DNA from: Thiomicrospira cyclica ALM1
Lineage (GTDB): Bacteria > Pseudomonadota > Gammaproteobacteria > Thiomicrospirales > Thiomicrospiraceae
Length of the DNA stretch: 64,000 bases
Direction: 5' to 3'
Assembly: GCF_000214825.1 (NCBI RefSeq)
Contig: NC_015581.1
Span: 992,001 to 1,056,000 of the forward strand
Below the pieces are notes generated by a model. The model was given only the letters and a program-made list of their open reading frames with translations. It was not told the DNA's origin and searched no databases. Positions 5,823-63,829 of this stretch are shown one piece after another. Position 1 is the stretch's first letter, and every line of letters begins with the position of its first letter. The position numbers were made by a program, and so were the translations under genes.

Positions 5823-6032
5823 CTATTTTCTTAACGGATCAAGAAGGTGCTTTAAACCATTGTGATCCAGCTCGTGCATGAGCGCCAACAATTGCCCTAT
5901 ATTTCCCGATGGAAAACCCTCACGCGCAAACCAATTAAGGTAATGTCCTGGCAAATCAGCAATAATTCGCCCCTTGTATTTACCGTAAGGCATCGTGAGT
6001 GTAACGAGTTGTTTTAAGTTCTCTGGACTCAT
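5823..6032 (-). CDS. Small DUF3820 protein
   Basis: 69 aa. The sequence MPYGKYKGRIIADLPGHYLNWF is typical of DUF3820 (also called QSregVF after a Pseudomonas structure). These are small single-domain proteins with conserved Gly-Lys and Trp-Phe positions and no established biochemical activity. It lies between the DUF482 gene and the TA pair on the same strand, 27 bp downstream of the toxin gene. No regulatory signal was seen. Confidence 0.8.
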   Translation of the reverse strand: MSPENLKQLVTLTMPYGKYKGRIIADLPGHYLNWFAREGFPSGNIGQLLALMHELDHNGLKHLLDPLRK

Positions 6033-6059
6033 AAGCTTAGTAATCGCTATTAATCAAAA

Positions 6060-6332
6060 TTATCGCTGTTGCCATTTAAAAATATCGAGCAAAAGCAGCG
6101 CACCCTGCTCCACTTTATAAATAATCCTATAACCTTGATGAATTAAATCACGATAAGCCTCATGCTTGAGGTAATGGAAAGGTCGGCACATAAATGGCTG
6201 GTTTTTAACCAATTCAAGCTTGGCCTGTAATTCACGCTCAAAACTCAACGCAGCGGGTGGATTATCAAGCGCAATATAACAAAGAATAGCTTGCAGACGC
6301 ACAACACAAGGCCGCGTTTTAACCAGCCTCAT
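6060..6332 (-). CDS. RelE/ParE-family toxin
   Basis: 90 aa. The pattern fits a ParE/RelE fold: helical N-terminus, a conserved Arg followed by hydrophobic strands (AYRDLIHQGYRIIYKV), then LLLLDIFKWQQR at the C-terminus. ParE toxins poison gyrase and RelE toxins cleave mRNA; the sequence alone does not decide between them. The ATG at 6332 overlaps the antitoxin stop by four bases, which is the usual antitoxin-first coupled TA arrangement. Confidence 0.8.
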   Translation of the reverse strand: MRLVKTRPCVVRLQAILCYIALDNPPAALSFERELQAKLELVKNQPFMCRPFHYLKHEAYRDLIHQGYRIIYKVEQGALLLLDIFKWQQR

Positions 6333-6625
6333 CGAACCAGACCAAGCTCACGCGCAAAAAACTCATTCATCACTTGCTCGTATTCTTCATCACTGAGTTG
6401 ATAACTCGCTTCCGATTCCGCTACCCGTTTTTGAACCTCGTCAATAGAAGACACGCTAAAAGACTGTTCAAGAGCTTGCTTTTGAATCTCTTTTTTCTGT
6501 TGCTGCTGTAAATAGGTCATGATTCCTTGGCGTGCTAACGAAGATTTGCTCTCCTGCAAGCGCTCCGCCAAACTATTTAACAGCGAATCGGTTTCCTCGT
6601 CTAATCGAATCGTCAAAGAAATCAT
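6329..6625 (-). CDS. Antitoxin, ribbon-helix-helix type
   Basis: 98 aa from the ATG at 6625 (MISLTIRLDEETDSLLNSLAERLQ). The upstream extension to 6688 has no family match. The first 45 residues form a ribbon-helix-helix DNA-binding segment: beta strand SLTIRLDEE, then two helices. The acidic C-terminal half probably wraps the toxin, and RHH antitoxins usually repress their own promoter. It overlaps the ParE/RelE-like gene by four bases. Confidence 0.8.
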   Translation of the reverse strand: MISLTIRLDEETDSLLNSLAERLQESKSSLARQGIMTYLQQQQKKEIQKQALEQSFSVSSIDEVQKRVAESEASYQLSDEEYEQVMNEFFARELGLVR

Positions 6626-6774
6626 CTGCCCTACTCCAACAATATTAATAATGTCATACAGTGTAAGACAGGTTGAAAAAAGGCACAAGCTTTAACCCGC
6701 ATGATCGACAACTGTAATGGTCTCCTAAATATCCGTTTGTGAAGGCTATCATACCTTCCAACTTTATTAGACCA

Positions 6775-7020
6775 TTAAAGTCTCAGCCGTTTTTCCTTTG
6801 TGCTCTGTCTTTTCGCTTCGTTGATCCATAGAAGGTAATCGTTTCGTTGGTATGGGGGCCTGGCTTCATACGCATCCATCAACCCAGACTCCATCAAAGC
6901 ATCCCTGACGAAATCAGACATCGGTTGCTTCTCACGCTTGAGCCTGGACACGTCACCTGGCATCTCTGCGACACCATCTATCATGCACAACGCTTGGTTC
7001 AGGTGCGCCGTAGGCGTCAC
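6775..7020 (-). pseudogene. Truncated YdeI/OmdA-like (bacteriocin-protection) protein remnant
   Basis: 81 codons. The second half (about residues 32-81) resembles the OmdA/YdeI C-terminal domain: a short helix, then PPYQRNDYLLWINEAKRQSTKEKRL. In intact members this continues with a further helix, but here a stop follows almost at once. The N-terminal part has no family match. I read it as a remnant between the TA pair and the methyltransferase. A short functional protein cannot be excluded. Confidence 0.5.
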
Positions 7021-7033
7021 TTGGAACCACTTG

Positions 7034-7255
7034 TTATATGCCGACCCATTCTATAAGGCTATCGGCTTTCTCCGGCTTCAAATCTCGAATCATCGCTCGG
7101 TAGATTTCTACCAACTCATCACACATATAGATATATGAGTTAAAATCTTCTGTGAAAGAAGGTAGCCCTTCTTTTAGACCTAGCTCAATTCCTTGGATAT
7201 TTATTGGTCCTATCGATTTATGACTATGAAGACCTAAGTTGTGAATCGTATTGCA
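7034..7255 (-). pseudogene. Unassigned open stretch without a start codon near its 5' end, likely gene remnant
   Basis: Reading the minus strand by eye gives 73 sense codons between two stops. Composition looks protein-like (GIELGLKEGLPSFTEDF, then MCDELVEIYRAMIRDLKPEK). There is no start codon before an internal Met about 40 residues in, and the stretch ends in a TAA at 7036-7034. I do not recognise a family. Same strand as the flanking genes; probably the tail of a decayed gene at the edge of the restriction-modification insert. The rest of 7021-7340 shows no other gene. Confidence 0.35.
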
Positions 7256-7340
7256 CTATTTAGGTAGCCAATTTCACTTTACCACTACACACAGCTAAAT
7301 TTTATTTGTAATATGGGAAAGCAAAACAAAACCCTTGCTA

Positions 7341-9644
7341 TTACCTATCGGATAGTTTTTCACTTGTTGTCTTCATAGCTTCCTGAACTTTTTTCAAGCC
7401 AAGTTCAAAATAGTTCTTATCCAGCTCAAACATTATCGCAGCCATGCCGTTCTGCACGGCAACACAGGCGGTTGTCATGCTACCGCCATACGGATCAACA
7501 ATGACAGCACCTTTTGGGAGGGTGTCAATAAGAAGTTGGGGTATCTCTGGGGGGAACGGTGCGGTATGCCCGTGAGTATTCTTGCCGCGCACCATCTTGA
7601 AGACAGGGCGTTGCTTTAACACCTTAATTGACAGTGGGACTGCTTCCGCTCCGGGCTTGCGAAACACAAGACAATGCTCCCAACAATTGAAAGGAAGCTG
7701 GTAATATGGTGATGTATTTCCACCATTGAAATTGCGCTTGCCTTCGATATCACCTTTAAACCAAATCACATTATCCGCGATTTTAAAGCCCGCCTTCTCA
7801 AACAAATGTATGATATAAGCACCTAATATCATTCGTTTCCTACCCATAGTTGAAAAAGCGACGATATTCTCATTATCAAAGTAGTCGAAAATATTATAGA
7901 TGAACAGACTACCCGGTTTAAGTACCTTGAAAACCGCTCTCGAAGCGTTGAACATATCAAAGAGATAACAATAGATATTTGGCCACTGAGAATATTCACG
8001 TGCGTTGAAATACGGTGGTGATGTAACTGCACCGTCTATGCTCTCTGGCGGCAAAGCTTTCAGTCCACTTTCACAGTCAACATTTATAAGTCGTATACCT
8101 GGTTCTAATCGCTGTTCTGATGATTCAGAAATAATTGCGCATTGAGAGCGCTCCAGTGCAAAACGCTTGAAGAAGGCGCTGTCAAAGAAGCGATTGCGAA
8201 TGCCTGCATCCGACTTCAACAACCCAAAGGATTCGTATACAATTTTACGTCCAAGATAACTGGTAGTCTCACCATTATCTTGCCCAATCACAAGTACACG
8301 ATCTTTATGCAGGCTGAATTGACGAACAAGCATATCAATGATTTCTTCATCGCGGACACCAAAGAGCACATCATTTCGCCAACGTCTGCGGACTTGGATC
8401 GGAATCTGATCTTCTGCTGACACAATAGCTTCTTGTTTCATAATTGATGCCAGGGAGTAGCGGTTTCCACGATCATAGGCGCTACGTTCAGGGCAAATTA
8501 GATTCTTACACTCCCAACTTCGAATCCCAATAGTTGGGTATGAATTCCCACCAACTTTGTGCGAACGACATGCAGGACAAGGTATTACCCGCTCATCACG
8601 TTCATTTTTTTCAAATAAGATAAGAATGTCATAGAGTTGGTTGGTTGTGCCTTCTTCATCGGCGTGAGAAAGAATAAAACAATCCTTAAAAAAGAACCCC
8701 TCATTAACTAGTTCAAAGTTAGCTGATTCAGAATTGAGAGCTTCCCCGATATAAGCTTTGGTAATCTCACGAATGGTGTTTGGTCGAAAATAACCTTTTG
8801 ATAAAGCAATTTCACGATGTTTTTCAGCATAAATAATGATATCAGCGAACAGGCGCCACTGTCGGGCTTCGCCGCCAGGTGCTGCTCGCAAGCGCATCGC
8901 AAAATAACAGTGATTTGCTAGACGTTCATAGCTATCTCGAACCCCTGTAAGAAGTAGATCGGATATTTCTTGATCGGTATGCTCGACATAAGCACCTATA
9001 TCAACATCCTGGTAGATCAGGGCGCATTCTCGATGTAACTGCTTATAATGATGAGTGCGAAGGTGGTTAAAAAAGTTAGCATGATATTCATTAAGTGCGT
9101 CTTCATTAAAGACTTTATGCATTATGCTGTCTTCAAAAGCACAGAAAACGAAGCCACCAAACAACGCACGCTGAATAAGAACTTGCTTTTCTTCAATGGC
9201 ACAGTCACGTGCATCGCTGCGGTTAACGCTGCCAGATTTCAGAAAGTCGTGTAAACCTGACACTGTCTCATCAATCGTGATTGGATTGAAGGTCTCTAGC
9301 AAATAATTACTTATCCCCTTTACCTCGCACCAAGCTGCGAACGCATCATGATTCGAATTGTCAAAGAGCGTGGCTAGCGTATTCTTATCATGATAGTTGA
9401 AGTACTGTCGCTGCTTAGCTGCAAGGTCAATAAACACCTTAATACGTTGCTTGTTAAGGCCGAGCTTACTATTTACTAGGGTGAAGAGCTCCCGGCTCCG
9501 ATCAGCCGAGGGACGCAAGGCCTTTTCACCAGCAGAGAGAGTCGCTCTTTCAGCCGCATCCATTAGATCAAGTGGACACTCAAATCTGAGACTTAACAAG
9601 TTGTTGAACTCATCTAGCAATTTAATAGCTAACGATTTTTTCAT
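7341..9644 (-). CDS. DNA (N4-cytosine or N6-adenine) methyltransferase with internal zinc ribbon
   Basis: 767 aa, large for a type II methyltransferase. The C-terminal third has the amino-methyltransferase motifs: catalytic motif IV TSPPYFNAREYSQWP (about residue 541) and, later, VDPYGGSMTTACVAVQNG (about 715), the motif I equivalent of DPFxGSGTT. The TSPPY-before-DPFxGS order is that of beta-class enzymes. About residues 357-395 hold a Cys4-like zinc ribbon (CPACRSH, then CKNLICPE). The N-terminal half (1-350) is helical and unassigned, perhaps target recognition. It is transcribed divergently from an Xre regulator and HNH nuclease gene, so it is the protective half of a restriction-modification system. 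Target sequence unknown. Confidence 0.88.
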   Translation of the reverse strand: MKKSLAIKLLDEFNNLLSLRFECPLDLMDAAERATLSAGEKALRPSADRSRELFTLVNSKLGLNKQRIKVFIDLAAKQRQYFNYHDKNTLATLFDNSNHDAFAAWCEVKGISNYLLETFNPITIDETVSGLHDFLKSGSVNRSDARDCAIEEKQVLIQRALFGGFVFCAFEDSIMHKVFNEDALNEYHANFFNHLRTHHYKQLHRECALIYQDVDIGAYVEHTDQEISDLLLTGVRDSYERLANHCYFAMRLRAAPGGEARQWRLFADIIIYAEKHREIALSKGYFRPNTIREITKAYIGEALNSESANFELVNEGFFFKDCFILSHADEEGTTNQLYDILILFEKNERDERVIPCPACRSHKVGGNSYPTIGIRSWECKNLICPERSAYDRGNRYSLASIMKQEAIVSAEDQIPIQVRRRWRNDVLFGVRDEEIIDMLVRQFSLHKDRVLVIGQDNGETTSYLGRKIVYESFGLLKSDAGIRNRFFDSAFFKRFALERSQCAIISESSEQRLEPGIRLINVDCESGLKALPPESIDGAVTSPPYFNAREYSQWPNIYCYLFDMFNASRAVFKVLKPGSLFIYNIFDYFDNENIVAFSTMGRKRMILGAYIIHLFEKAGFKIADNVIWFKGDIEGKRNFNGGNTSPYYQLPFNCWEHCLVFRKPGAEAVPLSIKVLKQRPVFKMVRGKNTHGHTAPFPPEIPQLLIDTLPKGAVIVDPYGGSMTTACVAVQNGMAAIMFELDKNYFELGLKKVQEAMKTTSEKLSDR

Positions 9645-9678
9645 TTCTAGTGCATTTTCCCGTTATAAATATGCGATT

Positions 9679-9732
9679 TTGGCATATTTTGCCGCATCTC
9701 ATATAATTTTGCAACTATGCGGAGATGAGCAG
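9679..9732 (+). promoter_or_regulatory. Promoter and leader of the xre-HNH operon
   Basis: TTGGCA (9679-9684) and TATAAT (9702-9707) are separated by exactly 17 bases, a near-consensus sigma-70 promoter. GGAG at 9721-9724 precedes the xre ATG by eight bases. CCGCAT and ATGCGG flank the -10 as an inverted repeat with a 19-base gap, and GGCA-N5-TGCC overlaps the -35. These are candidate controller-protein sites. The 88-bp gap also has to hold the methyltransferase promoter on the other strand. Confidence 0.7.
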
Positions 9733-9987
9733 ATGAAAACCATACACAGTGGTAGCTATAAGGTAGCACAACTAATGTTGATTCAACTAAGAAAGAATAG
9801 CGGGCTAACGCAATCAGAATTGGCCGAGTATATTGGCGTTGATCAGTCATTTATTAGCAAAATCGAACGGGGCGAACGGCGTTTAGATATTGTTGAGTTC
9901 GTGCTTTACTGTAACTCATTAAAAGTCTCACCCGCTGAAACGATTGAGATTTTGCAACAAAAAGTTGAGGATAGTAGCTATGAATAG
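9733..9987 (+). CDS. Xre-family transcriptional regulator (likely restriction-modification controller)
   Basis: 84 aa. Residues about 12-70 form a Cro/C1-type helix-turn-helix: LRKNSGLTQSELAEYIGVDQ, then SFISKIERGERRLDIVEF. The size matches C proteins of restriction-modification systems. The ATG at 9733 follows a good ribosome-binding site; the same frame is open further upstream to 9397, but that would run through the promoter and the methyltransferase gene. Its stop overlaps the nuclease start by eight bases (ATGAATAG), so nuclease translation depends on it. It probably times nuclease expression after methylation. Confidence 0.88.
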   Translation: MKTIHSGSYKVAQLMLIQLRKNSGLTQSELAEYIGVDQSFISKIERGERRLDIVEFVLYCNSLKVSPAETIEILQQKVEDSSYE

Positions 9988-11131
9988 AGACCATCCAATA
10001 GATCCACACTTTACTGATGAAGCAACTCCTCTTGATGCCACTGTAGATGTTGCACCTGTAGCAGGATTCGGGCTTCACGACAGCAATTGGTCGGAAAGTC
10101 AGTGGCAAGATTTAATCATCTCGTTCGTCGAAAATGGACTGGTGAACTGGAAAGAATTGGGCGCACTTATCCTCGGACACCTCAACCCTTCGCAAACAGG
10201 TACAAGCCTTGCGTCATCTGATGGTTTCAAGCGACGCTACGGTAAGGGTAACACCATGCGCATTGTCATGGATTGGGCTTATGCACAAACAGGGCAGTGT
10301 CAAGATTGCGGTAGTCGGCTTGAGTTGCAAGCTGATCATATAGAAAGTCGTGAACTTTTCACTGACCCGCTGGAAGCAGACTACATTGAAAACATAACAT
10401 TGCGCTGTAGGCGCTGCAATGTGGTGCGGAGACCTTCTCATGAACAAGGGGGCAAAACATTTTTGACAGCGGAATCTGCCCTCATGTGGATTTTATTGGT
10501 GATCAAGCCGCGCACTTATTTTGATTTCGTGCGTCTTTGCCGTATATACGGTATGACAATGGCTGATATCCGGATGCAAGAAGCCTGGGCAATGGCGCAT
10601 TGGCTTTCACGTAATGATCCGCCCTTGTATGGCATTGAGAATGATGAGAACGCATCCTATGATTTACTTCATTGGCAAACTGGTGAGATCACCCGAACAG
10701 ATGCGTGTGAAACCATTCCTGACAACGCCAAAAAGCTTTATGAAAACGTACGTGGAAATTACAGTTTTGCATTCCTCGCAAAAGCAGAAGACGGGCGAAT
10801 AAAGTTGTTCAACTATCCACTGAGATGGATTCCCTTTTCCACATATGATCTCGGGGAGATGCCGCCATACGCGCTGGCAATTCGTTACACTCCGCCTAAC
10901 AAAAAGAAAGGTCTGGCGCAACGGATTACCCCTCTACCACCTAGTGGCGACCTCATTATAGTCTCGCATGTTGTTGTCGCGCCTAACGAGCACTTAGTAG
11001 TAGGCAACGTTAATCATGGCGATAAAACTACGATAAAGGATCCTGTAAATCTCAATGGTAAGCTGCTCGATCGTAAACTCCAAAAGCAGCATGATCTTCA
11101 GCTTTCAGTGGCATCAGGTGAAGGATATTAA
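9980..11131 (+). CDS. HNH restriction endonuclease (putative)
   Basis: 383 aa from the ATG at 9980, which has GAGG about ten bases upstream inside xre. Residues about 98-145 form a zinc-bound HNH core: CQDCGSRLELQADHIESRE supplies the first Cys pair and the catalytic Asp-His, and the later NITLRCRRCNVVRRP supplies the Asn and second Cys pair. The rest has no family I recognise. The last ~200 residues are likely target recognition or dimerisation. Position downstream of a C-protein-like regulator and divergent from a methyltransferase marks it as the restriction subunit. Cleavage site unknown. No copy of the genome-wide word CAGGCCTG occurs in this locus. Confidence 0.82.
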   Translation: MNRDHPIDPHFTDEATPLDATVDVAPVAGFGLHDSNWSESQWQDLIISFVENGLVNWKELGALILGHLNPSQTGTSLASSDGFKRRYGKGNTMRIVMDWAYAQTGQCQDCGSRLELQADHIESRELFTDPLEADYIENITLRCRRCNVVRRPSHEQGGKTFLTAESALMWILLVIKPRTYFDFVRLCRIYGMTMADIRMQEAWAMAHWLSRNDPPLYGIENDENASYDLLHWQTGEITRTDACETIPDNAKKLYENVRGNYSFAFLAKAEDGRIKLFNYPLRWIPFSTYDLGEMPPYALAIRYTPPNKKKGLAQRITPLPPSGDLIIVSHVVVAPNEHLVVGNVNHGDKTTIKDPVNLNGKLLDRKLQKQHDLQLSVASGEGY

Positions 11132-11181
11132 TGATTCATAAAACTATATGTTCTGCAGTTTGTTGATCGGGTTTAGGCGCT

Positions 11182-56973: not shown

Positions 56974-57003
56974 ACCGACCACACATACCCCAAAAACAAA
57001 AAC

Positions 57004-57020
57004 GCCGGATTCAACCCGGC
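57004..57020 (-). terminator. Terminator of the vapC-like pseudogene operon
   Basis: GCCGG/CCGGC stem with a long T-rich run on the minus strand (AAAAACAAAAA on plus). Nearly the same sequence recurs at 58683-58701. Confidence 0.75.
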
Positions 57021-57059
57021 ATTTCAAAACACACAACCAAACCCTACCGACACAAAATA

Positions 57060-57434
57060 TTACTTAAAAACACCCATAAACCTATCAATAGAAATCACAT
57101 TTTTATGTGCTTGTAACTTTTTATCATCGCTAACCAACAAACACCTTTCAGACAGCGCAGAAGCCAAAATCAAACTGTCTGGCAACTTCAACGAACCCGC
57201 CTTGCGAATATGAATCGTTTACTCAACAACATCATAGCTTAGCCTTATTTCTTGCATCAAAGCAAGAACCGAACGAATATTACTTTCATCAGCCTTATCC
57301 AAGCTTGGATATGCTAACAGCTCAATCTTCGAAATACTCGAATAAAAAAGTATTGATTTTGGTAAAACAAGCCCATGTTCAAATAAATAAATTAACGCAT
57401 TGGTGTCGAGCAAATAACGATCATTCCCACTCAT
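57060..57434 (-). pseudogene. VapC-like PIN toxin, broken by a TAA
   Basis: From the ATG at 57434 the frame gives 71 residues (YLLDTNALIYLFEHG, SSISKIELLAYPS) and then a single TAA at 57221-57219. The same frame continues for 52 residues with the rest of a PIN domain (KLPDSLILASALSERCLLVS, then DDKKL) to a stop at 57060-57062. The stop removes the third and fourth acidic ligands, so the toxin is almost certainly inactive unless read through. Typical VapC length (about 124) when joined. The start overlaps the antitoxin gene by 14 bases. Confidence 0.85.
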
Positions 57435-57660
57435 CACGCATCGCCTGTTGATAAGCCAGCGCATCACAGTTTTTAAAAGCCTTCACCTTAAAAGCTGAAA
57501 AATCAAGCACATCTGCCCTTTCTACTCCAGCTACACTTTGGGACACATTAGCCTGCTCACTCAACACAATCACCTTCACATGCTGGTTTTTAAACTGCTC
57601 AAAATTCGGAATACGCACATACTCAGACACAACATCGGTTTCAAACTCAACGGCATACAT
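57421..57660 (-). CDS. Antitoxin partner of the broken VapC-like toxin
   Basis: 79 aa from the ATG at 57660. The N-terminus MYAVEFETDVVSEYVRIPNFEQF and HVKVIVL match the pattern of small antitoxins that pair with PIN toxins (compare the 61505-61735 gene, which shares the alternation). C-terminal part is charged and helical. It keeps its frame although the toxin is broken, so it may persist as an orphan or cross-neutralise related toxins. Confidence 0.75.
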   Translation of the reverse strand: MYAVEFETDVVSEYVRIPNFEQFKNQHVKVIVLSEQANVSQSVAGVERADVLDFSAFKVKAFKNCDALAYQQAMRDEWE

Positions 57661-57740
57661 AATCAAACCCTCTCAACTAACAAGCCAAACCCTATATTAC
57701 CCAAATCGCACACTTAACGCCAACTGTGAATCTATCGAGA

Positions 57741-57863
57741 GATCCTGAATCAAGTTCAGGATGACGGTGCTGGGTTCAGGGTGACGCCTTTACCGTCATT
57801 CCGGCTTTCATCACCGTCATTCCGGCTTTCATCACCGTCATTCCGGCGCAGGCCGGAATCTCA
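57741..57863. repeat. Family B and A palindromic repeats between TA modules
   Basis: One complete family B copy (GATCCTGAATCAAG, TTCAGGATGAC, 57741-57765), a half copy, then two tandem 21-bp half A copies (CGTCATTCCGGCTTTCATCAC) and a full A copy at 57836-57863. The last three bases form the yoeB stop. Confidence 0.9.
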
Positions 57864-58124
57864 CTCATAATGCGTCCAAAGGCGAATAACTTTAATAAGT
57901 TTTTCGTCCTCTAGCACCTGATACACAATGCGATGTTGAATATTAATACGTCTTGAATAGGCACCTGCTAAATCGCCAACCAATTTTTCAAAACGCGGAG
58001 GCGTAACGAAAGGATCTTGTTGAATTAATTCGAGCAATGCTTGCGCTTTAGACTTCAACCCACTGGCACTCAGCTTTTTTGCATCCTTAACCGCCTGCTT
58101 GGTATAAACCAGCTTCCAACTCAT
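57861..58124 (-). CDS. yoeB: YoeB-family mRNA interferase toxin
   Basis: 87 aa. The sequence WKLVYTKQAVKDAKKLSASGLK and RRINIQHRIVYQVLEDEKL follows the Txe/YoeB fold; the C-terminal WTHYE gives the catalytic His and Tyr region. YoeB binds the ribosomal A site and cleaves mRNA. Its TGA stop is contributed by a family A repeat, so the last codons may be variable. Antitoxin gene directly upstream, four-base gap. Confidence 0.88.
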   Translation of the reverse strand: MSWKLVYTKQAVKDAKKLSASGLKSKAQALLELIQQDPFVTPPRFEKLVGDLAGAYSRRINIQHRIVYQVLEDEKLIKVIRLWTHYE

Positions 58125-58128
58125 TGGC

Positions 58129-58371
58129 TTACCAAACTAACTCAGTATCACACTCTTCAACAGGCGTTTTCAAACCTTCAACAATCGATTCACGCATCCC
58201 AGGCGTACTTAACAAAAACAAGGTTTCATTAATCGCGCTCCAATCCTCTTCAGAAATGAGCACCGCATTGCCTTTCTTACCTATGATTGTAATGGGTTCA
58301 TGTGATTCGTTGACCTGCGCAATCAAACCATAAAAATTGGCACGTGCCGCCGTAGAATTTAAAGACGTCAT
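58129..58371 (-). CDS. yefM: YefM/Phd-family antitoxin
   Basis: 80 aa. N-terminal Phd/YefM fold with NSTAARANFYGLIAQVNESHEPITIIG and GNAVLISEEDWSAINETLFLL, typical of YefM. The C-terminal acidic tail should wrap YoeB. Antitoxin-first order, four-base gap to yoeB, and expected autorepression. Confidence 0.9.
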   Translation of the reverse strand: MTSLNSTAARANFYGLIAQVNESHEPITIIGKKGNAVLISEEDWSAINETLFLLSTPGMRESIVEGLKTPVEECDTELVW

Positions 58372-58460
58372 TTAAAACACCTCAATAGAATAATCATCAA
58401 AACCTAAGTGTACGTCATAACGTACGCCACTACAAGTCTATCTGTTTACACTTCGCAAGA

Positions 58461-58642
58461 GATCCTGAATCAAGTCCAGGATGACACCACCTCGTCATTC
58501 CGGCGCAGGCCGGAATCTCCTACCGACTCCACCGTCATTCCGGCGGAGGCCGGAATCTCAAACCGACTGTGCAAAACCTCAAGAGATCCTGAAACAAGTT
58601 CAGGATGACTCCACCGTCATTCCGGCGCAGGCCGGAATCTCA
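58461..58642. repeat. Five interleaved palindromic repeats (families A and B)
   Basis: B at 58461-58485, A at 58493-58519, A at 58533-58560, B at 58584-58608, A at 58615-58642. They fill most of the 355-bp gap between yefM and brnA. The remaining part holds the brnA terminator and no gene. Confidence 0.9.
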
Positions 58643-58682
58643 AACCGACTGTGCAAACCCTCGAAAGATCCAAAAACAAAAA

Positions 58683-58701
58683 CGCCGGATTCCATCCGGC
58701 G
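58683..58701 (-). terminator. Terminator downstream of brnA
   Basis: CGCCGGAT-TCC-ATCCGGCG hairpin; T-rich run on the minus strand from CCAAAAACAAAAA. Almost the same element lies downstream of the vapC pseudogene. Confidence 0.8.
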
Positions 58702-58726
58702 CAAAACGCTATCCAACTTTTTAAAA

Positions 58727-58945
58727 TCAAGCGTGGTTTGGAACATTAACCTGCTTTGCAAGTTTCAACAGCTCTCGCAATGCGTTATTAACCGCCGCAT
58801 TATTGGGAAATGCTGCAGCCACATCAGGTTCTACAATCACCACATTTGACGCTTGTCGCAAGCGTTCGGCATACTTGCCAACCTCCGCACTATCAAACAA
58901 TGCTGGATCATATTCATCTTTCATATCATCATCGATATTGCTCAT
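58727..58945 (-). CDS. BrnA-like antitoxin
   Basis: 72 aa. Acidic N-terminus and helical C-terminus (DVAAAFPNNAAVNNALRELLKLA). Position behind brnT with 17-base overlap is the BrnT-BrnA order (toxin first). DNA-binding region not obvious, so the antitoxin assignment rests mainly on position. Confidence 0.7.
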   Translation of the reverse strand: MSNIDDDMKDEYDPALFDSAEVGKYAERLRQASNVVIVEPDVAAAFPNNAAVNNALRELLKLAKQVNVPNHA

Positions 58946-59207
58946 ATTTCCACCTCTCGGCTTTAGTAGCCAGTCTTGCGCTTATGATACGAATACAATT
59001 TTCTTCTACTGCCGTATGCACCACAAGCAATATATTCATAGCCGCTGACAAACCTAGTGTTAAAAAACGTGACTCACCTACAGACGAAAATGGGTCCAAA
59101 ACGGTACGTGAAAGATCATCATAAAACACACTGCTTGCCTCTTCAAAAGAAACGCCATGTTTCTGAAGATTTAATTTGGCCTTATTCTCATCCCAGTCAA
59201 AAATCAC
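58929..59207 (-). CDS. brnT: BrnT-family ribonuclease toxin
   Basis: 92 aa from a GTG at 59207; no in-frame ATG fits the family start. FDWDENKAKLNLQKHGVSFEEASSVF is the classic BrnT N-terminus, and RIISARLATKAERWKYEQY the C-terminal end (IISARxA...E). BrnT cleaves RNA and is neutralised by BrnA. Upstream sequence 59208-59300 shows no gene; the promoter should be there. Confidence 0.92.
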   Translation of the reverse strand: MIFDWDENKAKLNLQKHGVSFEEASSVFYDDLSRTVLDPFSSVGESRFLTLGLSAAMNILLVVHTAVEENCIRIISARLATKAERWKYEQYR

Positions 59208-59300
59208 GCTTTCATCCAGTTCATTTTCAATTCAGTATACACCTAGATAATACAGAGAACCATTCTTAGGCTTCGCTACGCGCGAAAATGACACTTTTAC

Positions 59301-59487
59301 CGTCATTCCGGCACCACGCCCGTCATTCCGGCGCAGGCCGGAATCTCAAACCTTACCCGTCATTCCGGCGCAGGCCGGAATCTCAAACCTTACCCGTCAT
59401 TCCGGCGCAGGCCGGAATCTCAAACCTTACCCGTCATTCCGGCGCACATTAGGCGTCATTCCGGCGCAGGCCGGAATCTCCAACCTA
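59301..59487. repeat. Array of family A repeats with exact 37-bp period
   Basis: A half copy at 59301, then starts at 59321, 59358, 59395 and 59432 exactly 37 bases apart, then 59454. The first three units are identical: palindrome plus CTCAAACCTTACC. Identity suggests recent duplication. It is not a CRISPR array: the intervening sequence is the same in each unit. The array fills most of the 396-bp gap between brnT and the next toxin gene. Confidence 0.92.
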
Positions 59488-59518
59488 CCACTTATACCCC
59501 AAAAACAAAAAAGGCAAC

Positions 59519-59533
59519 GGCATCAACAATGCC
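59519..59533 (-). terminator. Terminator-like hairpin after the second VapC-like gene
   Basis: GGCAT-CAACA-ATGCC with T-rich run (AAAAACAAAAAA on plus) on the minus strand, 70 bp downstream of the toxin stop. Confidence 0.55.
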
Positions 59534-59603
59534 GCCGCCATTACTTTGATTAGATCATACAAACTTATATCAACCAAAAAAGCTTTCTCTGCTTACGCGA
59601 ATA

Positions 59604-59987
59604 TTACTTAAGTTCAACGGTTGTCACCTTTAAATCTAGCATCTTGAAATCATCAACATTATTGGTCACTATTTCAAAGCCATGCACCTGCGCGGTAGCA
59701 CCAATAATCGCATCAGGCGTTTTAATTTTATAATGTTGCCTGTTTATAATAGTACGATTTGCCACGACCTCATCGAGTTCATAAACCGTAGCATTTGAAA
59801 TAAACTCGATCGCTTTGTCATTTAAAGCAACATCACTCAAAAGTTTTTGCCAACTCAAAAACTCAATTTTCGTGATGATCGAAATATTAAAACTTGAACG
59901 AAGAATATCAACCAATGTCCCATCATCGGTAAGACCATTAAAAAAATAGATGACAACATTGGTATCAAGCAAATATTTGTTTTTCAC
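59604..59987 (-). CDS. VapC-like PIN-domain toxin
   Basis: 127 aa from a GTG at 59987. PIN acidic residues are present: YLLDTNVVIYFF (first Asp), SIITKIEFLSW (Glu), TPDAIIGATA (Asp) and TNNVDDFKML (last Asp). PIN toxins are Mg-dependent RNases, often cutting initiator tRNA or 23S rRNA. Three bases downstream of its antitoxin gene. Confidence 0.9.
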   Translation of the reverse strand: MKNKYLLDTNVVIYFFNGLTDDGTLVDILRSSFNISIITKIEFLSWQKLLSDVALNDKAIEFISNATVYELDEVVANRTIINRQHYKIKTPDAIIGATAQVHGFEIVTNNVDDFKMLDLKVTTVELK

Positions 59988-59990
59988 CGC

Positions 59991-60221
59991 TTAATCCCAT
60001 TCGCTTCTAGTCTGCGATAAATAGTCATCCACATCTGCCTTACTCACTGAAGCCGCACCAAAAAACGCCATAGGGTCAAAGGTCTTCTGCTCTTCAACTT
60101 GCGTCGTTTTAACCAAATCAAAAAGCGGCAACACAATAACCTCTACATCCTTACCAACATACTCTTTTGGAATATGCAAATTGTAATACTCGTTATCCGG
60201 TCTAATAATTTCTCTCAACAT
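59991..60221 (-). CDS. Antitoxin partner of the 59604-59987 PIN toxin
   Basis: 76 aa. MLREIIRPDNEYYNLHIPKEYVGKDVEVIVLPL resembles small antitoxins with an AbrB/beta-type N-terminus that pair with PIN toxins. Charged C-terminus ending SRSEWD. GGA upstream of the ATG at 60221. Gap of three bases to the toxin. Confidence 0.75.
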   Translation of the reverse strand: MLREIIRPDNEYYNLHIPKEYVGKDVEVIVLPLFDLVKTTQVEEQKTFDPMAFFGAASVSKADVDDYLSQTRSEWD

Positions 60222-60304
60222 AGCTTTTCCTTCATTGCGTTTATCAAGCCGTGAGTTTTGATTCTACCCTAAAACCAAGCCAATACCATGAAAGCCCTCG
60301 AGAG

Positions 60305-60381
60305 ATCCTGAAACAAGTTCAGGATGACGGTGCTGGGTTCAGGATGACACCTTTGTCATTCCGGCGCAGGCCGGAATCTCC
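60305..60381. repeat. Family B and A repeats between TA antitoxin and GIY-YIG gene
   Basis: B at 60305-60329, a half copy, and A at 60356-60381. The GIY-YIG stop lies 10 bases to the right, outside the palindrome. Confidence 0.9.
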
Positions 60382-60391
60382 AACCGACACT

Positions 60392-60676
60392 TCAAACAAT
60401 AGAATCCCACAAATCATTCCAATCAGGGTTCATCTCAGAAACCAACCTATTTTTCCAATCGCGATGCCAGTTTTTCAACGCCTTTTCACGCTTAATGGCT
60501 TCAGACATATCTTCATGAACCTCGAAATAAACTAACTTCGTAACATTATATTGCTTGGTAAAGCCATCAACTAAATGATTGCGATGTTGATATACGCGCT
60601 GTACCAAATTTGACGTTACGCCAATATAAAGCACTTTATTATTTTCATTAGACAAGATGTACACGGCTGGCTGCAT
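60392..60676 (-). CDS. Small GIY-YIG nuclease (COG2827-type) embedded in repeats
   Basis: 94 aa from the ATG at 60676; GAGGGT five bases upstream. The frame runs further upstream, but only through the 22-bp tandem and palindrome, so that extension is not likely coding. VYILSNENNKVLYIGVTSN (about residues 5-23) is the GIY-YIG motif; LVQRVYQH has the conserved Arg; EAIKREKALKNW has the catalytic Glu. Standalone members are predicted DNA nucleases. A C-type palindrome starts 15 bases before the ATG, so hairpin formation could affect translation. No partner gene. Confidence 0.88.
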   Translation of the reverse strand: MQPAVYILSNENNKVLYIGVTSNLVQRVYQHRNHLVDGFTKQYNVTKLVYFEVHEDMSEAIKREKALKNWHRDWKNRLVSEMNPDWNDLWDSIV

Positions 60677-60690
60677 ACAAACCCTCAAAA

Positions 60691-60820
60691 GATCCCGGCC
60701 TTCGCCGGGATGACGTAAATGAAATGCCGGTATGACGTAAATGAAATGCCGGTATGACGTAAATGAAATGCCGGTATGACGTAAATGGTATGCCGGGATG
60801 ACGTAAATAAAATCCCAGGA
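60691..60820. repeat. Palindrome (family C) plus five 22-bp tandem repeats
   Basis: GATCCCGGCC-TT-CGCCGGGATGAC at 60691-60714. Tandem units TGACGTAAATGAAATGCCGG start at 60711, 60733, 60755, 60777 and 60799, each 22 bases apart. The first three are identical; the last two diverge (GGTATGCCGGGA, AAATCCCAGGA). Each unit looks like the half-stem of the C palindrome with its flank. Confidence 0.9.
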
Positions 60821-60833
60821 TGACGCCTTTCCT

Positions 60834-61068
60834 GTCATTCCGGCGCAGGCCGGAATCTCCAACCAACATCACCGTCATTCTGACGAAGGTCAGGATCTCA
60901 AACCGACTGTACAAACCCTCGAGAGATCCTGAATCAAGTTCAGGATGACACCACCTCATCATCCTGACGAAGGTCAGGATCTCAAACCGACTGTACAAAC
61001 CCTCGAGAGATCCTGAATCAAGTTCAGGGTGACACCACCTCGTCATTCCGGCGCAGGCCGGAATCCCA
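60834..61068. repeat. Family A copy and an 84-bp tandem duplication carrying A/B palindromes
   Basis: A at 60834-60860. A unit of 84 bases starting at about 60873 (TCATTCTGACGAAGGTCAGG ... B ... ACCACCT) is repeated at about 60957 with few changes; a third part ends as an A copy at 61043-61068. This fills the gap between the GIY-YIG gene and the next TA pair (60677-61133). No gene seen. Confidence 0.88.
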
Positions 61069-61082
61069 TACCAACAAAAAAA

Positions 61083-61100
61083 AACGCCTAAACAGGCGTT
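61083..61100 (-). terminator. Terminator downstream of the 61134-61508 toxin
   Basis: AACGCCT-AAAC-AGGCGTT perfect hairpin with a nine-base T-run on the minus strand. Confidence 0.88.
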
Positions 61101-61133
61101 ATTATGCTGAATAATTCTTCGACTGATTAAAGC

Positions 61134-61508
61134 CTACCAGTCCTGCGTCACGCATTTATTCAGTTTCTTATCAAAAGAAAAAACCTGAACACCGATTGAT
61201 TTACTAGCCGCACAAAGCAACGCATCAACAAAATCAATATTTTTCTCAGCAAAGAAATTCAGTGCTAAAGAAACAATTTTTTCATCTTGCAAAAGCACAT
61301 TCTCTTTCTGACAAAAAAGATCAAGTGTTTTACAAGCATCAATCTTTGGAACCTGGTAAGTTTTTGTCAAGACATAAACAACTTCAGCCAAAACCTCATT
61401 CGGCACAAAAACCGTCTTCTCTTCTAAAATGGCAAGCGCCCGTGCAAATAGCTCATCATTATCTGCCAACAAATAACGCAATATAATGTTCGTATCGCAA
61501 TAATTCAT
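61134..61508 (-). CDS. VapC-like PIN-domain toxin
   Basis: 124 aa. PIN motifs: MNYCDTNIILRYLL (first Asp), PNEVLAEVVYVL (Glu), IDFVDALLCAAS (Asp) and SFDKKLNK (last Asp). An RNase toxin. It overlaps the antitoxin stop by four bases. Different subfamily from the 59604 and 61845 toxins. Confidence 0.9.
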   Translation of the reverse strand: MNYCDTNIILRYLLADNDELFARALAILEEKTVFVPNEVLAEVVYVLTKTYQVPKIDACKTLDLFCQKENVLLQDEKIVSLALNFFAEKNIDFVDALLCAASKSIGVQVFSFDKKLNKCVTQDW

Positions 61509-61735
61509 GCCTTTTCATCCGCAACGGCCTGCCAAGCAATCTGCCTTTCTATATCCATAAGCTCAGGTTTTGCATACTTTGAAAGCGCACCCGCAATACT
61601 TGCTGACTCATTATTTAGACCGGGGCTATCTTCCGTAACAATAAACACTTTCACATGCTTATTCAGTACACGAGCGTAGTCCTTAAACTCAATAAAAGGG
61701 CTGGTAATATCCGTTTCAAAAGCTTCTACATGCAT
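61505..61735 (-). CDS. Antitoxin partner of the 61134-61508 PIN toxin
   Basis: 76 aa. MHVEAFETDITSPFIEFKDYARVLNKHVKVFIV parallels the antitoxin at 57421-57660 (both start FETD, then a DY/NF stretch and HVKV), so these two TA pairs share one ancestor at least for the antitoxin. Helical charged C-terminus. Confidence 0.8.
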   Translation of the reverse strand: MHVEAFETDITSPFIEFKDYARVLNKHVKVFIVTEDSPGLNNESASIAGALSKYAKPELMDIERQIAWQAVADEKA

Positions 61736-61819
61736 TTAACACCCCCATAAAAACAAAGTTAAACTTTTATTTTACCCGAAAATAAACGTGTCATGTCCAC
61801 CGTCATTCCAAACCACCAC

Positions 61820-61847
61820 CGTCATTCCGGCGCAGGCCGGAATCTCA
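61820..61847. repeat. Family A repeat providing the stop codon of vapC
   Basis: CGTCATTCCGGCGCAGGCC then GGAATCTCA; on the minus strand the final TGA is the stop codon of the 61845-62243 toxin gene. Confidence 0.88.
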
Positions 61848-62243
61848 AACCCAATTCTCGAGCCTTAAACCCGGAACGCGTTCAAATTCACACAGGTTAT
61901 TGCTCACCAAAATAAGACCTCGGCTTCGAGCGTGTCCGGCAATCATCATGTCATAAGGGCCTATTGGTTGACCTTTTGCATAAAGTTCTGCGCGAATTTG
62001 ACCAAAATGAGTCGCGGCATGGCTATCAAAATCCAGCACATCCAAACGCGCGATCAAACCTTCAATATCGGCAAGATTCCGCTCAGGTTGGTTAGATCGT
62101 TCGGCACCGTAAATCAATTCGCCAACTGTAATCGTCGAAATCGCCATCTGCGTCACATGACTATTAAAAGCATCACGGACCTGCCTAGGTCGGTTTTTTA
62201 AGGTATAAATCAGAATATTGGTATCGAGCAAATACTTGATCAT
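61845..62243 (-). CDS. vapC: VapC toxin (PIN domain RNase)
   Basis: 132 aa. YLLDTNILIYTLKNRP has the first Asp; AISTITVGELIYGAERS the Glu; PIGPYDMMIAGHARSRGLILVSNN the third Asp; the terminal region VPGLRLENW is typical. Its antitoxin overlaps it by four bases. The TGA stop comes from a family A repeat. Confidence 0.95.
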   Translation of the reverse strand: MIKYLLDTNILIYTLKNRPRQVRDAFNSHVTQMAISTITVGELIYGAERSNQPERNLADIEGLIARLDVLDFDSHAATHFGQIRAELYAKGQPIGPYDMMIAGHARSRGLILVSNNLCEFERVPGLRLENWV

Positions 62244-62476
62244 AAGGATTCGCGAAGCTGATCCGGCTCTTGCGCACGCTCGTTCATAAAATCATCGCTC
62301 ACACCTACAGCATCAAACCAATCATCCCACGTCTGTTCAAGCGGGGTGATAATGCGAGTTTTGCCAATTGCGGTAATGACAACCTGCTTAATACTTTCGT
62401 CCAAGGCAACCGATTTTGGCAAACGTACGGCCTGAGATTGGTTATTTTTAAAAAGGGTTGTTGTAATTGCAGTCAT
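62240..62476 (-). CDS. vapB: VapB antitoxin (AbrB/MazE-like)
   Basis: 78 aa from the ATG at 62476. The swapped-hairpin DNA-binding N-terminus (TTTLFKNNQSQAVRLPKSV) is characteristic of VapB with VapC. C-terminus FDAVGVSDDFMNERAQEPD should bind the toxin. Antitoxin first, four-base overlap. Confidence 0.92.
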   Translation of the reverse strand: MTAITTTLFKNNQSQAVRLPKSVALDESIKQVVITAIGKTRIITPLEQTWDDWFDAVGVSDDFMNERAQEPDQLRESL

Positions 62477-62558
62477 CACAAATGTCCTGTATATCCAAAA
62501 GGTTTATACATGTTAATCTAATCCAGTACGGCGGTCAAACAGCAACGAAACTTCGAGA

Positions 62559-62727
62559 GATCCTGAATCAAGTTCAGGATGACACCACCTTGTCATTCCG
62601 GCAGATTACCCCGTCATTCCGGCGAAGGCCGGAATCTCCAACCGACTGTGCAAACCCTCGAGAGATCCTGAATCAAGTTCAGGATGACACCACTGGGTTC
62701 AGGATGACGGGGTTGGGTTCAGGATTA
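62559..62727. repeat. Cluster of family B and A repeats between vapB and galE
   Basis: B at 62559-62583, half A at 62591, A at 62612-62639, B at 62664-62688, then two B half copies (GGGTTCAGGATGAC and GGGTTCAGGATTAC) ending ten bases before the galE stop codon. The vapB promoter must be at the left end of this 260-bp gap. Confidence 0.9.
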
Positions 62728-62737
62728 CAAAACCTGA

Positions 62738-63829
62738 TTACTTATACCCATTCGGATTCATCGACTGCCAGCGCCAAGCGTCTTCGCACATTCGCTCTAT
62801 GCCCAATTCCGCTTTCCAGCCCAACATTTCAAACGCATAGCTCGGGTCGGCATAACATTGCGCGACATCACCAGGCCTGCGGGCTACAATTTCATAAGGC
62901 ACAGCTTTACCCGATGCCTGTTCAAACGCCTTCACCATTTCCAATACCGAATAACCGCGCCCAGTGCCTAAATTCACCGTCACCAGGCCTGGTTGTTGCA
63001 TTAACTTCCGCAAGGCCGCCACATGGCCTTTCGCTAAATCCACCACATGAATATAATCGCGCACCCCTGTGCCATCGACTGTATCGTAATCGCCACCAAA
63101 TACAGACAACTTCTCACGCTGCCCCACCGCCACCTGCGATACAAACGGCATCAAATTATTCGGAATCCCATTCGGGTCTTCACCAATCAAACCCGACTCA
63201 TGCGCCCCAATCGGATTAAAATAACGCAACAAACCAATCGACCAATCTGAATCACTTGCAAAAACATCCCGCAAAATGTTTTCCACCATCAACTTCGAAG
63301 CGCCATACGGATTGGTGGTCGATAACGGAAAATCCTCACGAATTGGCACACTCTTTGGGTCTCCGTACACCGTCGCCGACGAACTAAACACCACCCGCTT
63401 GCAACCAAACTCCGCCATTACCTCAAACAACGCCACCGAACCCGATACATTGTTATCGTAATAACGCAACGGCATCGCCACCGATTCCCCCACCGCCTTC
63501 AAGCCGGCAAAATGAATCACCGCTTCAATCTCAAACCGCGCAAAAACCGAACGCAACAACCCCCGATCCCGAATATCCCCTTGGATAAAAGTTAAACGTG
63601 CGTCATCCCGGACTTGATCCGGGATCTCCAACCGGCTAACACTGTCATTCCGGCGAAGGCCGGAATCTCCATCCAACAACTCAACCCCAGCAATCCCCGC
63701 AACCCGCTCAAGCGAGGCCACAGAACTATTACTCAAATTATCCACCACCACCAAATCATACCCAGCCGCCAACAACTCAACACACGTATGCGACCCGATA
63801 TACCCCGCACCACCTGTCACTAAAATCAT
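62738..63829 (-). CDS. galE: UDP-glucose 4-epimerase with repeat-derived insertion
   Basis: 363 aa from the ATG at 63829. Interconverts UDP-glucose and UDP-galactose. [17 protein letters not shown] is the NAD motif; the active site has SSSATVYG and YGASKLMVE (Tyr-X3-Lys). E. coli GalE is 338 aa; the extra 25 residues lie at about 53-77 and are encoded by two palindromic repeats at 63601-63629 and 63643-63670. The inserted segment reads [18 protein letters not shown] then DQVRDDA, and the normal strand [10 protein letters not shown] follows. Two CAGGCCTG words occur at 62872 and 62984. Confidence 0.95.
63601..63670. repeat. Two palindromic repeats inside the galE coding sequence
   Basis: A C-type repeat (CGTCATCCCGGACTTGATCC then GGGATCTCC, 63601-63629) and an A copy (TGTCATTCCGGCGAAGGCC then GGAATCTCC, 63643-63670), 13 bases apart. 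They add a multiple of three in total, so the galE frame is intact. Confidence 0.92.

Follow-up and report, generated by a model that had tools for sequence, protein, structure and literature searches.

A predicted Type II restriction-modification module with an HNH nuclease and an enlarged zinc-ribbon methyltransferase at a variable site in Thiomicrospira cyclica

Three adjacent genes of Thiomicrospira cyclica ALM1 very probably make up a mobile Type II restriction-modification (R-M) system that, as predicted from sequence, is complete and was gained by horizontal transfer. They lie in a stretch of 64,000 nucleotides (contig NC_015581.1, positions 992,001 to 1,056,000), termed the window. The system is of the kind in which a controller gene and a restriction gene (C-R) are divergent from a methyltransferase gene (M). 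All three open reading frames listed in a first-pass annotation of the window are present where it placed them. The features of the module are as follows (window positions, then residues of the methyltransferase).

7341-9644, minus strand: methyltransferase (M) gene, 767 aa
9667-9689, M/C intergenic region: operator-like inverted repeat, AAATATGC-GATTTTG-GCATATTT
9679-9707, plus strand: sigma-70-like promoter of the xre-HNH operon, TTGGCA-17-TATAAT, 11/12, a consensus match only
9733-9987, plus strand: Xre/Cro-type controller (C) gene, 84 aa, HTH_3
9980-11131, plus strand: HNH endonuclease (R) gene, 383 aa, PF01844
Methyltransferase residues ~1-310: N-terminal part, no family match
Methyltransferase residues 356-384: Cys4 zinc ribbon
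Methyltransferase residues ~519-750: beta-class N4/N6 domain

In the mechanism that we propose, the methyltransferase would methylate an amino group, most likely the N4 of cytosine, in its DNA target, and the HNH enzyme would cut unmethylated copies of that sequence. By binding the inverted repeat that separates the divergent genes, the Xre controller would time the operon that it shares with the nuclease, and in a cell newly entered by the module methylation would come first. We infer the type of methylation, the nuclease activity of the HNH protein, the sharing of one target by both enzymes and the direction of regulation. No HsdR/HsdS or Res was found within the module; a translocase or specificity subunit is not needed. 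Pairing a C-R operon with an M gene that stands apart is standard in Type II systems, Esp1396I among them.

The first-pass annotation had proposed a new R-M system. The R-M part of this proposal is well supported by the conserved pairing of the two enzymes, the coupled C-R operon, the operator-like site and the variable defence site in which the module lies. The novelty is upheld only in part: the flanks of the HNH core, which match no family in the libraries searched, and the target sequence are left unassigned, and the kind of methyltransferase, the HNH class and the C-R/M layout are all known. If our reading is true, an uncharacterised family of HNH restriction enzymes is gained together with its own methyltransferase and controller, and possibly a new cutting specificity, while the general understanding of R-M systems is unchanged by the module.

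The two enzymes and their possible target

The M protein had been described as a 767-residue beta-class amino-methyltransferase with an internal Cys4 cluster, and this description is borne out by a Pfam match to PF01555 above the cut-off (residues 536-748, E 2.5e-18), by the order of the motifs and by the invariant cysteines. Motif IV (TSPPY, residues 541-545) precedes the DPYGGS motif, giving the beta order. Both catalytic motifs are conserved among homologues, and the four cysteines of the zinc ribbon (C356, C359, C379 and C384) are invariant in 5/5 homologues, down to 40% identity. The ribbon and catalytic half (residues 309-751) matches positions 416-897 of PDLC03236, a 912-position PADLOC model of Type II methyltransferases (MTase_II; E 1.6e-95), which is also matched by two homologues. 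As the N-terminal ~310 residues fall outside this match and no family was found for them, the long N-terminal half that had been called unassigned remains so for residues ~1-310 but not for 309-751. Enlarged zinc-ribbon Type II methyltransferases are not new, because PDLC03236 matches this enzyme and two homologues. Enlarged methyltransferases of such a sort were moreover already known, since a 2646-bp N4-cytosine methyltransferase gene, predicted by REBASE and without a known site, is listed for Paracoccus DYTN-1 (PMC11473606).

The best structure match of the methyltransferase was 2zie, a "putative" methylase, followed by the N4-cytosine methyltransferases 8s9n and 1boo, with N6A enzymes giving weaker matches. 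Together, the TSPPY motif and the N4-cytosine matches after 2zie favour m4C without proving it, and we consider the enzyme to be probably an N4-cytosine methyltransferase. It is the only PF01555 methyltransferase in the host genome, which contains no PF00145 methyltransferase and also has PF02384 methyltransferases (Type I or similar).

The divergent Xre gene and the 383-residue HNH nuclease of the first-pass annotation are likewise confirmed by matches to HTH_3 and PF01844. The match to PF01844 spans residues 107-147 of the HNH protein (Pfam, E 2.8e-5, above the cut-off), and C107, C110, C143, C146, H120, N138 and N147 are invariant in 6/6 homologues. Outside the catalytic core the flanks match no family, as had been noted. 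None of the PADLOC REase_II models was matched by the HNH protein at E 1, and three homologues gave no REase_II match either; the same library recognised a BstXI-family control nuclease. No solved structure was matched by a profile of the HNH protein family. The nuclease family is thus without a name in the libraries searched, REBASE being outside them; this may reflect what the tools cover rather than real novelty. Among the catalytic classes of Type II enzymes, HNH ranks second in frequency (PMC4081073). With HNH a common class and enlarged methyltransferases present in the PADLOC Type II set, the architecture is less unusual than the first-pass annotation held when it called the size and domain mix non-standard. 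Predicted structures of both enzymes were poor (mean pLDDT 47 and 50, from 4-5 sequences).

A fuller reading of the module is possible, and we offer it tentatively and as a whole. In this reading, the HNH protein would found a restriction-enzyme family of which no member has been characterised. Its internal Cys4 HNH core would be embedded in a conserved N-terminal block of ~200 residues, and the C-terminal half, which varies more, would read the target. The N-terminal part and zinc ribbon of the methyltransferase would supply recognition on the other side, and the specificity would be unusual (long or gapped). Taken jointly, these proposals fall somewhat short of an even chance.

Three suggested relationships of the nuclease were rejected. 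The similarity to IscB (E 0.018) is confined to the generic HNH core. A relation to BstXI, to which the nuclease next to the closest plasmid methyltransferase had pointed, was discarded because PF09552 is matched by the control BstXI-family nuclease and not by the HNH protein, with no alignment between them. The HNH enzyme of Paracoccus DYTN-1 is ruled out as the same protein, at 16 kDa (PMC11473606).

The target sequence was approached through palindrome avoidance, using a maximal-order Markov test of 4- and 6-bp palindromes in ~460 kb of the host versus 400 kb from each of two congeners, genomes where the module was not found. No strong or clear host-specific motif emerged from this comparison. 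TGCA is mildly low in the host (0.83 versus 0.96 and 1.01 in the congeners), a depletion too weak for TGCA to be accepted as the target. The avoidance result is neutral on the activity of the module and speaks neither for nor against it.

The control region

The controller is an HTH_3 protein (Pfam, E 2.7e-14) that weakly matches PADLOC control-protein models (2.5e-8). Upstream of it, the inverted repeat at 9667-9689 has two perfectly matching 8-bp arms set 7 bp apart, and this near-palindrome hardly differs between four copies of the module. The four intergenic regions share an unchanged 17-nt run, AAATATGCGATTTTGGC, with [A/C]TATT after it, although they come from loci where dS is ~0.9 or more and synonymous sites are near or at saturation. 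The sigma-70-like promoter at 9679-9707 is the best promoter-like site in the region, and its -35 element falls inside the inverted repeat. Because a conserved inverted repeat overlaps the -35 of the xre-HNH promoter, we infer that Xre may regulate its own operon via this putative operator. A conserved operator would fit the conservation of the helix-turn-helix region of Xre (ISKIERGERRLD and the preceding residues), which is retained although overall identity drops to 44%. The stop of xre and the start of the HNH gene overlap by 8 nt at 9980-9987; four copies have an overlap of this length, that of Salinicola with an inferred TTG start, and the planctomycete copy has one of 4 nt. Overlapping genes of this kind suggest coupled expression.

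Comparison with known systems

Systems of the Esp1396I type resemble the module in that a small Xre-type controller gene overlaps the restriction endonuclease gene, the methyltransferase gene is separate and the location is mobile. The controller and endonuclease genes of pEsp1396 (1481-1720 and 1713-2636) overlap by 8 nt, the same length as in the module. These systems differ in that M is convergent there and divergent in the module. The methyltransferase of pEsp1396 has ~330 aa and was not found by a search with the 767-aa enzyme. The Esp1396I-type endonuclease is of the BstXI family, and the BstXI-family nuclease tested does not align with the HNH protein of the module. Esp1396I recognizes CCAN5TGG.

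PDLC03236 matches the ribbon and catalytic half of the methyltransferase together and leaves its N-terminal ~310 residues uncovered; no specificity is attached to the model. The closest plasmid relative of the catalytic domain is the methyltransferase of pUTI-042y-1 from S. saprophyticus (39% over residues 543-765). Unlike the module, pUTI-042y-1 has room for a methyltransferase of only ~350 aa, and its nuclease is of the BstXI family and without sequence relation to the HNH protein. The record NZ_CP054439.1 (L021) is a 2305-bp Staphylococcus saprophyticus plasmid consisting of almost only a BstXI-family nuclease gene and a methyltransferase frame; this frame crosses the start of the record and has no listed gene in the PLSDB table.

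HNH Type II enzymes (the KpnI, SphI, MboII and Hpy99I class) share with the module a Cys4 HNH core of the form CxxC...CxxC, and such a core is the usual alternative to PD-(D/E)XK in Type II enzymes (PMC4081073). Set against these enzymes, the HNH profile of the module matches no solved structure and the flanks match no family. Another possible comparison is TneDI of Thermotoga (CGCG, predicted m4C; PMC5637354), taken up because the genome of T. maritima gives a match to PDLC03236, recorded at genome level.

Relatives, alternative explanations and genomic site

When one genome per species was searched, relatives of the HNH protein turned up in Salinicola halimionae, Tateyamaria sp. syn59 and a Planctomycetaceae MAG. 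The same divergent M/C-R layout is present in Salinicola halimionae (HNH 74% and methyltransferase 77% identity), in Tateyamaria sp. syn59 (70% and 74%) and in the alphaproteobacterial genome G456 (72% and 75%), the last found through its full-length methyltransferase in a search of 398 genomes with PDLC03236. The sole other match in those 398 genomes (G405) is much weaker, in a 273-aa frame. The planctomycete MAG carries the module at 55% identity on a contig that ends inside the methyltransferase gene. A marine contig from the viral set holds the HNH (47%) and methyltransferase (40% identity) genes in convergent, tail-to-tail order, indicating that the pairing of M and R survives rearrangement. 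On this contig (L016, 3681-4777), an Xre-like gene and a metallopeptidase-like gene (HELGH motif) adjoin the pair and may replace the controller there.

M and R thus occur together, across phyla and in two layouts, in 5/5 loci with both genes readable, plus the one truncated planctomycete locus. Further copies are scarce: none of the methyltransferase among 57 genomes of relatives of the host and, beyond the cases named, none of the HNH protein in the class of the host (369 genomes) and none matching PDLC03236 in the class of G456 (385 genomes). Plasmid and phage collections held no HNH relative at E 0.01. This distribution fits horizontal transfer. In all three genes and every pair with an estimable dS, dN is far below dS, a sign of purifying selection from which it follows that the genes are not chance open reading frames.

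The pairing of M and R bears on whether the genes form one system at all. A solitary regulatory or maintenance methyltransferase might stand beside an unrelated HNH nuclease and regulator (e.g., of a homing or mobile-element kind) with no shared target; the HNH protein matches no recognised endonuclease model, HNH proteins are common in mobile elements, and the copy in G456 lies near two integrase-like genes, with integrase-like genes also near the Tateyamaria copy. Such an association is hard to reconcile with a pair kept through divergent and convergent layouts, and among the loci found no full-length relative of the methyltransferase lacks the HNH gene, the short G405 match aside; we regard this explanation as improbable. 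The constant linkage to one methyltransferase also argues against a modification-dependent (Type IV-like) nuclease that cuts foreign methylated DNA while the methyltransferase has another purpose, since self-cutting would be likely. The HNH core of two homologues is faintly similar to a Type IV model (E 0.007 and 0.015), but the similarity is confined to the generic core, and sensor domains such as SRA or EVE were looked for without a match, making a Type IV-like role very unlikely.

A decayed or silent R-M remnant might account for the lack of detectable palindrome avoidance in the host. However, avoidance would also be absent after recent acquisition or with a long or gapped site, and the intact frames, the invariant catalytic residues and a dN well below dS leave little room for decay; the probability of a remnant is very small. 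An R-M system with both enzymes intact is the reading that we prefer.

The genomic site of this predicted R-M system lends further support to a role in defence. The module sits between the FemAB-like/QSregVF_b side and an oligopeptide ABC transporter, and the genes next to it are a ParDE-like pair and the ABC transporter. When congeners (loci L036, L037, L038, L039, L040 and L042) were compared with window positions 6000-11180, the transporter was kept and the adjacent slot varied. The slot measures ~10.8 kb in G006, with HsdM, a YhcG-type nuclease, HsdS, a PrrC match and RhuM; 6.6 kb in G008, with a PDC-M68B-like protein, an ABC-3C-type protein and other genes; and 7.1 kb in G001, with an LmuB-like SMC ATPase. 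In G002 and G007 it is <1 kb. The slot beside the transporter resembles a defence hotspot; this supports a role of the module in defence and, if true, would provide a clear example of one chromosomal site with different defence systems in sister species.

Other features of the window were observed in passing. A ParE-like toxin gene preceded by a ribbon-helix-helix gene (6060-6688) adjoins the module and is followed by an OmdA-like open reading frame of 81 aa with a GTG start (6775-7020). A low-GC stretch at 57000-63000 contains several PIN-like toxin genes (59604-59987, 61134-61508 and 61845-62243). ORF-like motifs (SGAGRNLL / HPELDSGSLEGL) recur in it and resemble dispersed palindromic repeats.
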